NCBI GenBank assembly: GCA_016194975.1
Contig: JACQAM010000023.1
Coordinates: 124,001-188,000 of the forward strand
Direction of reading: 5' to 3'
DNA length: 64,000 nt
Source of the DNA: Bacteroidota bacterium
GTDB lineage: Bacteria; Bacteroidota; Bacteroidia; Palsa-965
Of this stretch, positions 6,356 through 18,102 are shown in pieces; the first letter of the stretch is position 1, and every line of letters starts with the position of its first letter. A program made the position numbers and the translations under genes. The notes beneath the pieces were generated by a model. It did not search any database and was not told the origin of the DNA. It saw nothing but the letters and a program-made list of their open reading frames with translations.

Positions 6356-6900
6356 CAGCCGAGGGGAGGAAATTGTTGCTGTTGTTCCGGCGTTCCGAAA
6401 ACTTCGGGTTTATCTTTTTTTACAAACGCTGAAATGATGAGGTTGAAAATAGTAAGGAAAAACATTCCGCCGAAAAGTGCGAGTACTGCCATCACCGGCG
6501 GAGAAGCAAATTTTTTCCCAAAATCGATGCCCATTTTAATTGATTCTTCCGGCAATCCCTGCTCGCGCATTTTTGCAGCTTGTTTTGCAAATTCGGCATC
6601 CATGATCGCGGGATCCATAATGTAAGACATGAACACATAAGCCCAGATTGCCATGATGATGCTGTAATACAATGCAAAAAAAGTGGTGTAGCCCATTGCC
6701 TGGCCATAACTCATGAAACCGTCCTTACCGTTTTTTCTCCAGTTAAGCGCGCCGAAAACAATGATCCCGATATAGAAAACATAGGAGAGGTAATTCCATG
6801 CTGAGTTTCTGAATCCGGCGAAATAAATTCCAAGTGAAAAAGCGATCACAAGGATTGCTGCGGAGACGGAATAGGTAAGCGAATGTTTGTGGATATTCAT
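6355..6900 (-). CDS. DUF4199-like membrane protein
   Basis: This 181-residue protein has four membrane helices: about residues 10-28, 38-53, 75-97 and 143-168. Between helices three and four lies a charged loop with E-F-A-K-Q-A-A-K-M-R-E-Q-G. That pattern, a conserved short loop after helix three followed by a last helix and a polar tail, is that of the DUF4199 family, restricted largely to Bacteroidota. In that phylum it often sits directly before a GT2 gene of the type found downstream here. Function is unknown. The ATG at 6900 is favoured over one 36 bases upstream because it begins the conserved N-terminus. Confidence 0.8.
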   Translation of the reverse strand: MNIHKHSLTYSVSAAILVIAFSLGIYFAGFRNSAWNYLSYVFYIGIIVFGALNWRKNGKDGFMSYGQAMGYTTFFALYYSIIMAIWAYVFMSYIMDPAIMDAEFAKQAAKMREQGLPEESIKMGIDFGKKFASPPVMAVLALFGGMFFLTIFNLIISAFVKKDKPEVFGTPEQQQQFPPLG

Positions 6901-6930
6901 GGTGGTTTGATTAAGGAACAAATATAGCTT

Positions 6931-7092
6931 ATTCAAAATTCAAGATTGAAAATTCAAGATTTCCGCAGCGGGTTAAGTAGAATTTGACGTTAATTATTGT
7001 CAAATTTTACCAGTGAGTACCCTAATTTTGAGCGCCTGCTATTTATCTCGGCAGAATGGCCAATTTTGAATCTTGAATTCTGAATTTTGAAT
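6931..7092. repeat. Word-type inverted repeat upstream of the SRP RNA gene
   Basis: The left arm (6931-6961) and right arm (7062-7092) are imperfect reverse complements of about 31 nt. Each is a string of ttcaaga/ttcaaaa words. In the loop a second hairpin has a perfect 8-bp stem AATTTGAC/GTCAAATT (6981-6988 and 6999-7006). The right arm ends one base before the end of the spacer of the SRP RNA promoter, so the repeat and the promoter overlap. It belongs to the window-wide class of word-type hairpins described in the findings. Confidence 0.6.
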
Positions 7093-7100
7093 TACCTTTG
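7073..7100 (+). promoter_or_regulatory. Predicted promoter of the SRP RNA gene
   Basis: A TACCTTTG at 7093-7100 fits the Bacteroidota -7 consensus TAnnTTTG, with a TTG at 7073-7075 seventeen bases upstream. The last base of the box is four bases before the first base of the SRP RNA stem at 7105. That is where transcription would be expected to begin. The agreement of box, RNA end and terminator makes this one of the firmer promoters in the window. Confidence 0.6.
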
Positions 7101-7104
7101 AATC

Positions 7105-7200
7105 GGGTAAGTCTTACACGACCAGCTCCTGCCGAATCCCCCAGGATCGGAAGGTAGCAAGGGTAGGCGGTTGTAGCGGTGCGATGTAAGTAGCTTACCC
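7105..7200 (+). ncRNA. ffs: Signal recognition particle RNA, small bacterial (4.5S) type
   Basis: The RNA pairs with Ffh to target membrane and secreted proteins co-translationally. Its apical region, around CAGGATCGGAAGGTAGCAAG at 7142-7161, has the GGAA tetraloop closed by C-G and the asymmetric internal loop that bind the Ffh M domain. The ends GGGTAAG (7105-7111) and CTTACCC (7194-7200) pair to close the hairpin, giving about 96 nt, the usual size. A run of ten T from 7202 serves as the terminator. Symbol ffs is by function and structure. Confidence 0.9.
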
Positions 7201-7212
7201 ATTTTTTTTTTC
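7201..7212 (+). terminator. T-run terminating the SRP RNA
   Basis: Ten consecutive T at 7202-7211 directly follow the closing stem of the SRP RNA, which itself acts as the terminator hairpin. Confidence 0.6.
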
Positions 7213-7326
7213 GCACCTCCTTTCGCACGGGAATGAACACGGATATGCAGATCGCAGATTGAATTGGGAACTGGGAATAAATATCCGCGATGGATATATT
7301 CATAAACATTTGTAATCCCTGACCTT

Positions 7327-7887
7327 TTGATTCCGCCTCTTTATCTCGAATCTTCACGACTTATTATTCGTCCATTTAAATTATCGGATGCTTCTTCTCT
7401 TTTTCACCTGGTGAATTCGAACAAAGATCTGCTTGAAGATTATTTTCCGATGACGGTAGAGAAAAATACTTCGGTGAATGCCAAGCGCATTTACATCATG
7501 GAAAGAAATCATGAACGCAATAATGGGAAAGCTCTTTTCGCCGGAATTTTTCTTCGCGATGAAAAAAAACTCATCGGCCAGATGTGTGCGAAGGATATCA
7601 ATCATCGTGTGCCTAAATGTGAAGCTGGATATTTCTTAGACAGGAATTTTCACAGGAAAGGACTTGCAACAGAAGCGCTGAATTTATTTTTGAATTTCTG
7701 TTTCAGCGAAATGAAAATGGCAAAGATCACGCTGCGCATTGAACCGAAAAATACTTCGTCCAAAGCACTGGCACAGAAATGCGGATTCACCATGATCGGT
7801 GTTTCTAAAAATGATTTCAGAAGTGCCAATGGCCGGCTGATGGAATGTGAACTCTGGGAGTTGTACGAAATACGAAAAGGATACTAA
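7327..7887 (+). CDS. GNAT family N-acetyltransferase (RimJ/RimL-like)
   Basis: The 186-residue protein opens with LESSRLIIRPFKLSDA, the first strand and helix of RimJ/RimL-type acetyltransferases. The acetyl-CoA-binding segment is around FHRKGLATEAL, where R/Q-x-x-G-x-A is expected and RKGLA is seen. FTMIGVSKNDF follows near the end. The only start that keeps the first strand is the TTG at 7327; an in-frame stop lies 24 bases upstream and the first ATG is far inside the domain. The last seven codons and the stop lie in the left arm of a perfect 36-bp inverted repeat. The substrate is unknown. Confidence 0.83.
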   Translation: MIPPLYLESSRLIIRPFKLSDASSLFHLVNSNKDLLEDYFPMTVEKNTSVNAKRIYIMERNHERNNGKALFAGIFLRDEKKLIGQMCAKDINHRVPKCEAGYFLDRNFHRKGLATEALNLFLNFCFSEMKMAKITLRIEPKNTSSKALAQKCGFTMIGVSKNDFRSANGRLMECELWELYEIRKGY

Positions 7888-7968
7888 AAGTTACGAAAGT
7901 ATTGCGTGAAGAAATTTTCGTACCCTTTGGTATTTCGTAACTTTTAGTATCCTTTTCGTATTTCGTAC
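7863..7968. repeat. Perfect 36-bp inverted repeat (tacgaaa words)
   Basis: Positions 7863-7898 are the exact reverse complement of 7933-7968, with a 34-nt loop. The arm is built of near-repeats of tacgaaa. The left arm encodes the C-terminus and stop of the GNAT gene; the right arm reaches to within 13 bases of the -7-like box (TAATTTTG, 7981-7988) of the fsa gene. A stem of this length would be a strong transcript-end structure, but without a T-run. It is the most perfect example of the word-type hairpins here. Confidence 0.85.
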
Positions 7969-8006
7969 TCTATGCTTTACTAATTTTGTAAATACAAACA
8001 CACACT

Positions 8007-8660
8007 ATGAAATTTTTCATCGACACAGCAGATCTCGCACAGATCAAAGAAGCACAGGACCTCGGCGTACTGGACGGAGTTACCACCAATCCTTCGCTGA
8101 TGGCGAAAGTGGGAATTTCAGGTGAAGCAGCAGTGACAAAACACTACATCGACATTTGCAGGATCGTTACCGGCGATGTGAGCGCAGAAGTGATCGCAAC
8201 CGATTTCGACGGCATTGTGAAAGAAGGAGAAAAACTTGCCGCACTCCACAAACAGATCGTGGTGAAAGTTCCGATGATAAAAGACGGGGTGAAAGCAATA
8301 AAATATTTTTCTAATAAAGGGATCCGCACAAACTGTACACTCGTTTTCTCACCCGGGCAGGCATTGCTCGCAGCGAAAGCCGGCGCCGCTTATGTTTCTC
8401 CGTTCATTGGCCGGCTCGATGATGTTTCTACCGACGGGTTGAATCTCATTGCGGAGATCCGGAATATTTACGACAACTACGGATTTAAAACACAGATCCT
8501 CGCCGCATCCATCAGGCACCCGATGCACATTGTAGATTGCGCAAAACTCGGCGCCGATGTTGCAACTTGTCCGCTGAGTGCAATTCTTGCTTTGCTGAAA
8601 CATCCGCTTACTGATAACGGGCTTGCGCAGTTCCTCGCTGATGCAAAAAAGTTTCAATAA
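8007..8660 (+). CDS. fsa: Transaldolase / fructose-6-phosphate aldolase (short type)
   Basis: At 217 residues this is the short transaldolase subfamily (TalB-like TIM barrel, MipB/FsaA/TalC). The opening MKFFIDTADLAQIKEAQ and DGVTTNPSLMAK are diagnostic. The Schiff-base lysine is in VVKVPMIKDGVKA, and TLVFSPGQALLAAKAGAAYVSPFIGRLDD supplies the phosphate-binding loop. It interconverts sugar phosphates of the non-oxidative pentose phosphate pathway. Sequence alone does not separate transaldolase from fructose-6-phosphate aldolase activity in this subfamily, so the symbol is a family label. A TAATTTTG box ends 18 bases before the start. Confidence 0.92.
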   Translation: MKFFIDTADLAQIKEAQDLGVLDGVTTNPSLMAKVGISGEAAVTKHYIDICRIVTGDVSAEVIATDFDGIVKEGEKLAALHKQIVVKVPMIKDGVKAIKYFSNKGIRTNCTLVFSPGQALLAAKAGAAYVSPFIGRLDDVSTDGLNLIAEIRNIYDNYGFKTQILAASIRHPMHIVDCAKLGADVATCPLSAILALLKHPLTDNGLAQFLADAKKFQ

Positions 8661-8667
8661 AATTGTA

Positions 8668-8768
8668 CTGTACGAACTACGAAATTGACGAAATACGAAA
8701 ACTACGAAGCATCAATTTATCAAGTCATTTCCTACTTCGTACATTTAGCGGATACATAGTTCGTACAG
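8668..8768. repeat. Imperfect inverted repeat (tacgaa words)
   Basis: CTGTACGAACTA (8668-8679) is the exact complement of 8757-8768, and TACGAAG (8703-8709) of 8735-8741. The intervening sequence carries further tacgaaa words, as in the repeat at 7863-7968 on the other side of fsa. The element fills the whole spacer between fsa and the YciO-like gene and ends three bases before the latter's ATG, so it lies in the untranslated leader. Confidence 0.6.
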
Positions 8769-8771
8769 CAG

Positions 8772-9395
8772 ATGCTTCTAAGAATAAATCCCGATAAACC
8801 CGATTCCGATTCCATTCACAGGGCAGCAGATATTCTTCGTGCGGGCGGGCTCATCATTTATCCTACTGATACGGTTTACGGAATTGGCTGCGACATTTAT
8901 CACCCGAAAACAATTGAGCGCCTGTGTAAATTAAAAGGCATTGCCCCCGAAAAATCTAATTTCTCCATTGTCTGCCACGACCTTTCTCATCTTTCCGATT
9001 TTACAAAACCAATTTCTACTTCTGTTTTCCGGGTTTTGAAAAAAGCATTGCCCGGCCCTTATACGTTTATCCTCGAAGCAAATTCTTCTGTTCCTAAAAT
9101 TTTTCAGGGAAAAAAGAAAACAGTTGGCATACGCGTGCCGGCGAATGCGATCGTACGTGCAGTGATACGCGAACTCGGAAATCCCATCGTCTCTTCTTCC
9201 GTTCACAATACCGAAGATGAAATGCTGGAATATTTTTCGGATCCCGAACTTATTTATGAAAAATATAAAGACATTGCCGACTGCGTGATCAATGGCGGGT
9301 ACAGCATGATGCAACCATCCACCGTCATTGATGCGACCGGTGGAAATTTTGAATTGCTGCGTGAAGGTGCGGGAGAAGTGAGTGGATTGTGGTAG
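8772..9395 (+). CDS. YciO/YrdC-type L-threonylcarbamoyladenylate synthase-like protein
   Basis: The 207-residue protein has the YrdC fold markers: LRAGGLIIYPTDTVYGIGCD at 27-46, the KLKGI block corresponding to the KxR region, GPYTFILEAN, and TVGIRVPAN at about 118-126. This last binds nucleotide and bicarbonate/threonine. True TsaC/Sua5 proteins make threonylcarbamoyl-AMP for t6A37 of tRNA. The YciO branch is close but its activity is less certain, and the length and C-terminus (STVIDATGGNFELLREGAGE) fit YciO. The start is three bases downstream of an inverted repeat. Confidence 0.83.
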   Translation: MLLRINPDKPDSDSIHRAADILRAGGLIIYPTDTVYGIGCDIYHPKTIERLCKLKGIAPEKSNFSIVCHDLSHLSDFTKPISTSVFRVLKKALPGPYTFILEANSSVPKIFQGKKKTVGIRVPANAIVRAVIRELGNPIVSSSVHNTEDEMLEYFSDPELIYEKYKDIADCVINGGYSMMQPSTVIDATGGNFELLREGAGEVSGLW

Positions 9396-18026: not shown

Positions 18027-18102
18027 ATTACAGATAATACAGATATACAGATATGGAATTGGCAACCTTAAGCCCGGGATCTGTATCTGTATTATCTGTA
18101 AT
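18027..18102. repeat. Inverted repeat of acagata words between dapB and rpsP
   Basis: The left arm starting at 18027 and the right arm 18079-18102 are complementary over 19 perfect pairs (attacagataatacagata). A 2-nt bulge and five more pairs follow. The arms are made of repeated acagata words. The element is in the divergent spacer between dapB and rpsP, so it cannot be a simple terminator for both; it could form in either transcript's leader or be a DNA-level structure. Confidence 0.7.

Follow-up and report, generated by a model that had tools for sequence, protein, structure and literature searches.

The perfect hairpin at 7863-7968 belongs to a dispersed, species-specific family of palindromic repeats at gene ends. 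The window (i.e. the whole stretch of 64,000 nucleotides that was analysed) carries this copy on the 3' end of a GNAT acetyltransferase gene. We consider it rather probable that the family's main role is that of a gene-end unit, combining a stop codon with a probable two-way RNA 3' end. If this is true, gene ends in these bacteria are shaped by a spreading palindrome that supplies the stop and rewrites the final codons of conserved genes, among them those for the acetyltransferase, PurD and release factor 2.

Structure of the hairpin

The features of the region are as follows.

7098-7204, small SRP RNA gene (Rfam RF04183)
7327-7887, + strand, GNAT acetyltransferase gene (PF13302, E 1.1e-24), 3' end apparently overwritten
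7863-7898, + strand, left arm of the palindrome, GTACGAAATACGAAA-AGGAT-ACTAAAAGTTACGAAA, inside the last GNAT codons (repeat search and family alignment)
7864-7887, + strand, final GNAT codons lying in the element, YEIRKGY plus the stop TAA (from the sequence; orthologue tails differ)
7899-7932, + strand, loop of 34 nt, longer in most full-length family copies (repeat search, family alignment)
7923-7967, + strand, internal direct repeat with a 28-nt step, CCCTTTGGTATTTCGTA and CCTTTTCGTATTTCGTA (repeat search, family D2)
7933-7968, + strand, right arm, the exact complement of the left arm (repeat search)
8007-8660, + strand, transaldolase-like gene 3' of GNAT (same order in G001, G002, G003 and G006)

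An inverted-repeat search of the window recovered two arms (7863-7898 and 7933-7968) of 36 nt each, 100% complementary and 34 nt apart, with a score of 36, the highest among the four inverted repeats in the window. The chance level was gauged in 464 kb of this genome, where inverted repeats scoring at least 15 numbered 24 and mirror repeats only 1. The predicted RNA fold of the hairpin was -57.3 kcal/mol, compared with -22.6 (sd 3.2) in dinucleotide shuffles (z -10.7). The stem is A+T-rich, and no Rfam model matched 7863-7968 above its gathering score, the small SRP RNA being the sole match in the window. An earlier note on this DNA had described a perfect 36-bp stem with a 34-nt loop and no T-run; the repeat search bore out this structure, far above chance, but that single-site reading had missed the other copies of the dispersed family.

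A species-specific dispersed family

The word TACGAAATACGAAA was matched 63 times in the 4.1-Mb Bacteroidia genome to which the window belongs, and the reversed control word 0 times. Across 59 genomes, the same word was found in the window's own genome (63 matches), once or twice in each of five others, and in none of the remaining 53; among six genomes of the same genus, one has a single match. Searches of genome_contigs and viral_contigs, both of which may leave out the window's own genome, returned 0 exact matches to the family pattern, and carriage by phages or other genomes was rejected on these counts.

A full-length family member is an imperfect palindrome of roughly 110-140 bp whose ends have the form [GT]AGTACGAAATACGAAA...TTTCGTATTTCGTACT[CA] (the element end may also be given as [GT]AGTACGAAA). 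Flanks of the copies show a layout of [GT]AGTACGAAATACGAAA, a spacer of 4-5 nt, ACTAAAAGTTACGAAATACGAAA, a variable middle and then the complement. Nine copies were used to build a covariance model, which, with 150 of 1269 candidates scored and E values of up to 1 accepted, gave at least 77 strand-hits in the genome itself. A search of the genus at E up to 0.1 gave 9 weaker matches, all in G001, five other genomes having none. The 14-mer sites and 36 places found by the model (E up to 0.107) were merged into 53 sites; C7:344371, C8:336050 and C23:55791 (E 0.14 to 0.76) were left out. At sites known by the 14-mer alone the edges were set at the word, so that gaps are over-estimated, and in a few cases the model edges may begin outside the true element.

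An exact asymmetric 18-nt loop core is common to 4 of the 53 sites and shows, because it is shared, common descent for at least those four copies. Single-arm copies are common, and pairing is therefore not indispensable. Nested within some copies are short palindromes (TCCCGAA..TTCGGGA) as well as a longer palindrome. The longer palindromic element (GTAGTG..CAGTTTG ... CAAACTGAGCCACTAC) was seen nested inside TACGAAA hairpins at L004, L024 and L040. One family copy (L042 near 1985) contains GAGGCTGTCTAAAATT, which we take from its appearance to be an insertion-sequence end and which is also an arm of another inverted repeat (G000 C7:153647-153778).

Altered C-termini

As the earlier note had pointed out, the last seven residues of GNAT and its stop are encoded in the left arm, codons 7864-7887 reading TAC GAA ATA CGA AAA GGA TAC TAA (YEIRKGY and TAA). 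The comparison with orthologues that it had called for was performed on the GNAT-transaldolase pair in G001, G002, G003 and G006. None of these four syntenic orthologues carries this hairpin, and their last residues all differ from those seen here: WELYEIRKGY in the window vs WEKIKK (G001), WERIPPAK (G006), FELLK (G003) and YELYA (G002), with alignments ending at residue 179 of 186 (G001, G006) or 181 of 186 (G002, G003). Tails that differ past the conserved region, together with hairpin-free orthologues, support the suggestion that the GNAT C-terminus was overwritten by the element. The nearest GNAT found is 64% identical, and the four syntenic gaps that lack the element are too distant to serve as a base-level empty site; two distant loci were recovered from a scan of named genomes, and no close strain in which the site is empty.

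The same kind of junction was found at all three gene ends compared (GNAT, PurD and release factor 2). PurD here ends GQDLL-EYEIRNPE, the tail being read from the element, while in ten relatives GQDLL, or a motif like it, is followed by short tails of their own. Release factor 2 (RF2) here ends ASWN-LG with its TAG joined to TACGAAATACGAAA, vs longer forms such as WNTELKT or WNVDLK in six relatives. In the case of GNAT, a family copy would have come to lie on the 3' end, most plausibly by insertion, replaced the variable tail and supplied the stop codon. GNAT and PurD have short tails that vary in every relative, and the cost of their replacement was therefore probably small.

Position at stop codons

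Genes were called with a simple codon model rather than taken from curated annotation. The 53 sites comprised 29 in codirectional, 16 in convergent and 7 in divergent gaps, with one undecided. Gaps of 8 nt or less separated the element from the neighboring gene in 34 of 61 cases on the stop side vs 5 of 44 on the start side (p 2e-6). For the family alone, neither the depletion of divergent gaps (7/52, p 0.15) nor the enrichment of convergent gaps (16/52, p 0.06) was significant.

Stop usage pointed in the same direction. Among 40 abutted ends (abutting being defined as -40 to +8 nt for this count), stops were TAG in 20, TGA in 15 and TAA in 5, compared with 48, 114 and 138, respectively, in a background of 300 genes that includes a few element-abutted genes of contig C7 (TAG excess at abutted ends, p 5e-6). 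At eight of the listed ends, TACGAAATACGAAA follows directly from the TAG, whose G is also the element's. These data show that the first bases of the element give or abut stop codons.

Such positions might also be expected of a purely selfish or neutral palindromic repeat that lands anywhere and survives in intergenic gaps and dispensable last codons, with no job at gene ends. The variation of GNAT and PurD tails in all relatives indicates that insertions there are tolerated, many half copies and nested insertions occur, and 17 of the 53 sites abut no stop. Tolerance alone, however, predicts neither that about half of the stop-side gaps measure 8 nt or less nor the complementary spacers described below, and we regard a selfish origin of the whole pattern as rather unlikely.

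Complementarity of the arms

The spacer between the words was exactly complementary across the arms in 10 of 14 two-armed copies, involving six different spacers, and did not match in the other four. Permutation of the spacers gave a mean of 2.6, and 0 of 20000 permutations were as high as 10; after removal of five copies of the commonest type the count was 5 of 9 (p 0.00025). The alignment of nine copies has 95.2% of its cells paired and five pairs in which both partners change, vs 1.9 in shuffles, figures that are biased towards structure since the structure was read from the same copies. Among hairpins between codirectional genes (G000, G001 and G007), sense-strand mismatches were G-U in 13 cases vs A-C in 7, a difference on which we base no claim of RNA-level selection. 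The spacer counts show that complementarity of the arms is either maintained or newly created; selection for pairing, fold-back synthesis and correction would each be consistent with this.

The earlier note had read the perfect arms as a sign that one had recently been corrected by the other. A mutational product of this kind, in which a single arm of repeated words was folded back and copied, or one arm corrected the other with no selection for pairing, would account for perfect arms and for a variable spacer that is matched within copies. Single-arm copies also exist, one of them identical to the window arm. It leaves the stop-codon position unexplained, however, and several other copies elsewhere carry a different but well-paired arm set; we find this explanation improbable. 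The right arm (7933-7968), read on the - strand, is the same 36-mer that stands as a single arm at C22:112125, its words are those of the family consensus, and perfect arms alone are thus no proof of recent correction.

Transcript ends

The long stem can form in transcripts of either strand, where it would probably act as a two-way transcript end or as a barrier at the 3' end. A canonical terminator was rejected: no sites with a short G+C-rich stem followed by a T-run were called in 6800-8900 and the hairpin itself has no T-run, in keeping with the previous remark that it lies far beyond a normal terminator. An ordinary intrinsic (Rho-independent) terminator of GNAT that grew in place would likewise be a hairpin at the 3' end of a gene, and the right arm does have short T runs. 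Unlike such terminators, the element combines a long A+T-rich stem with a 34-nt loop, holds a stop codon inside an arm that overlaps coding sequence, and belongs to a dispersed sequence family with 63 word copies elsewhere and no terminator call. We therefore give this origin hardly any weight.

With the abutting range extended to -40 to +20 nt, a strict pattern detected canonical terminators at 1 of the 42 gene ends that abut an element and at 5 of the 19 that lie beside one without abutting it; in the background the counts were 0 of 20 and 16 of 184, respectively. Five convergent gaps have the element against the stop of the near gene and a separate canonical terminator for the far gene. This distribution fits an element that serves as a gene end, but the support is weak because canonical terminators were rarely detected at all.

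The hairpin could instead set mRNA stability or processing without ending transcription, as reported for ERIC and NEMIS in the excerpted text of PMC2229807. Along with these precedents, a long perfect stem in a predicted transcribed 3' region would suit such a role. The frequent copies between convergent genes (16/53) are better suited to a two-way end, and we judge an RNA-level element to be as unlikely as a selfish repeat.

Comparison with known repeat systems

ERIC/RU-1 is, by analogy, the closest known system in form and behaviour. Excerpts of PMC2229807 and PMC2759123 describe ERIC/RU-1 as a palindromic, MITE-like element of about 127 bp with reported effects on mRNA, and give a case in which RU-1 is fused to an amidase gene, removing the normal stop and adding an element-coded tail. 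According to the same excerpts, the likeness with ERIC, IRU and RU-1 extends to a length of about 100-130 bp, an imperfect palindrome, many intergenic copies and the occurrence of nested or partial copies (PMC2229807, PMC2759123). Many dispersed copies with shared ends were also found here (63 word matches, 53 merged sites and the listed flanks). Unlike those elements, the outer bases of the present family very often supply the stop, the arms hold repeated words, no target duplication is seen and the lineage is Bacteroidia; the likeness is one of form, and no sequence relation is claimed. In particular, none of the 19 listed flanks has a target-site duplication: GA or TA stands on nearly all left sides and TC or TA on most right sides, i.e. 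the flanks are complementary, not direct.

REP and REPIN sequences with their RAYT (Y1 transposase) genes are likewise dispersed, species-specific palindromes, as far as the excerpts of PMC6006769 and PMC12306157 go, and the former reports that Y1 genes of subclass 2.6 in Bacteroidetes have atypical structures on their flanks, copies of which also occur at other places. The definition excerpted from PMC6006769 has a GTAG/GTGG tag beside a basal stem of 7-20 bp with a loop of 2-5 nt, as opposed to the 36-bp stem, 34-nt loop and absence of a GTAG tag next to the foot found here. A RAYT flanked by copies of the repeat was not found: the genome's three Y1 loci, one of which (L043) is cut by a contig end, had one lone TTCGTA and no doublet word of the family within about 1.5 kb. 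With no family words near any of these Y1 genes, a RAYT partnership was rejected, and no partnered transposase was found among the Y1 genes checked. One Y1 transposase gene lies beside a REP-like array of ATGTCGGGTGTTATCACGCG units (L045 1190-1309), whose words are unrelated to the family; it is probably a RAYT with its own REPs.

Period-7 hairpins in related genomes

Cyanobacterial STRR heptamers are heptamer repeats, and a seven-base step was also evident among long hairpins of this and related genomes. Long inverted repeats (score at least 15) outnumbered mirror repeats by 16 vs 2 in G001, 13 vs 0 in G007, 6 vs 0 in G006 and 5 vs 0 in G005; the counts were 0 vs 1 in G003 and 0 vs 0 in G002. 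For arms with a loop of at least 10, identity at lag 7 was 0.54 in the window's own genome, G000 (22 arms, z 10.8), 0.56 in G001 (14 arms, z 12.0) and 0.43 in G007 (11 arms, z 4.9). Arms reaching 0.6 at this lag numbered 9/22, 8/14 and 4/11, respectively, vs random-piece means of 1.0, 0.5 and 0.2. The hairpin class thus has the seven-base period of a heptamer array in three genomes, a pattern that rests on small samples. No period 7 was detected in the arms of G006 (4 arms, z -0.9), and intergenic sequence outside these repeats gave no lag-7 signal (0.27 to 0.29). The window arm itself has a weak lag-7 identity (12/29), its best lag being 11. Why unrelated hairpin arms in three related genomes share a period of 7, while other intergenic sequence does not, is the question posed by these data.

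The words differ from one long hairpin to the next. In G000 and G001 combined, long hairpins were commoner between convergent genes (14/34 vs 69/371, p 0.004) and often began at a stop codon. The GNAT-transaldolase gap of G001 (L054 1143-1415) holds a different, imperfect hairpin of GATGTGC-like words, which begins one base before the GNAT stop and has a second palindrome nested in its loop; it lies below the scan score and was spotted by eye, then aligned and folded. A different hairpin at the same gene end indicates, therefore, that the architecture persists while the sequence does not.

More tentatively, these hairpins may form a general class of gene-end structures, present in some Bacteroidia and kept by architecture rather than by sequence, although we hold this to be a possibility somewhat on the unlikely side. 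Its members would be inverted, degenerate seven-base words starting at or in a stop codon, with words that are species-specific and replaceable wholesale at one gene end, as in the GNAT-transaldolase gap of G000 vs G001. They would provide a portable translation stop and a two-way transcript end, made by a process with a seven-base step.

A full-text literature search, with most subscription journals outside its scope, found no description of heptad-word hairpins at Bacteroidota stop codons. Arrays of the heptamer TAACTGA occur in Beggiatoaceae, Cyanobacteria and Bacteroidetes and, in the excerpts of PMC4679880, share with the present hairpins the seven-base step, the intergenic location and a patchy distribution across related species. 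As excerpted there, however, each array repeats a single word in direct orientation and most lie immediately ahead of start codons, whereas the words here are degenerate, inverted and at stop codons (PMC4679880).

Three further repeats of this general appearance were observed in the window. A heptad-type inverted repeat (ATTCAAAATTCAAGATTGAAAATT and its complement) at 6931-7085 lies just before the small SRP RNA gene and, unlike most, is on the start side of its neighbor gene. Past the transaldolase stop, at 8668-8768, a second word family (CTGTACGAACTA / TAGTTCGTACAG) has relatives at L022 and L035. Another word hairpin, at 18027-18102, consists of ATTACAGATAATACAGATA with its exact complement.
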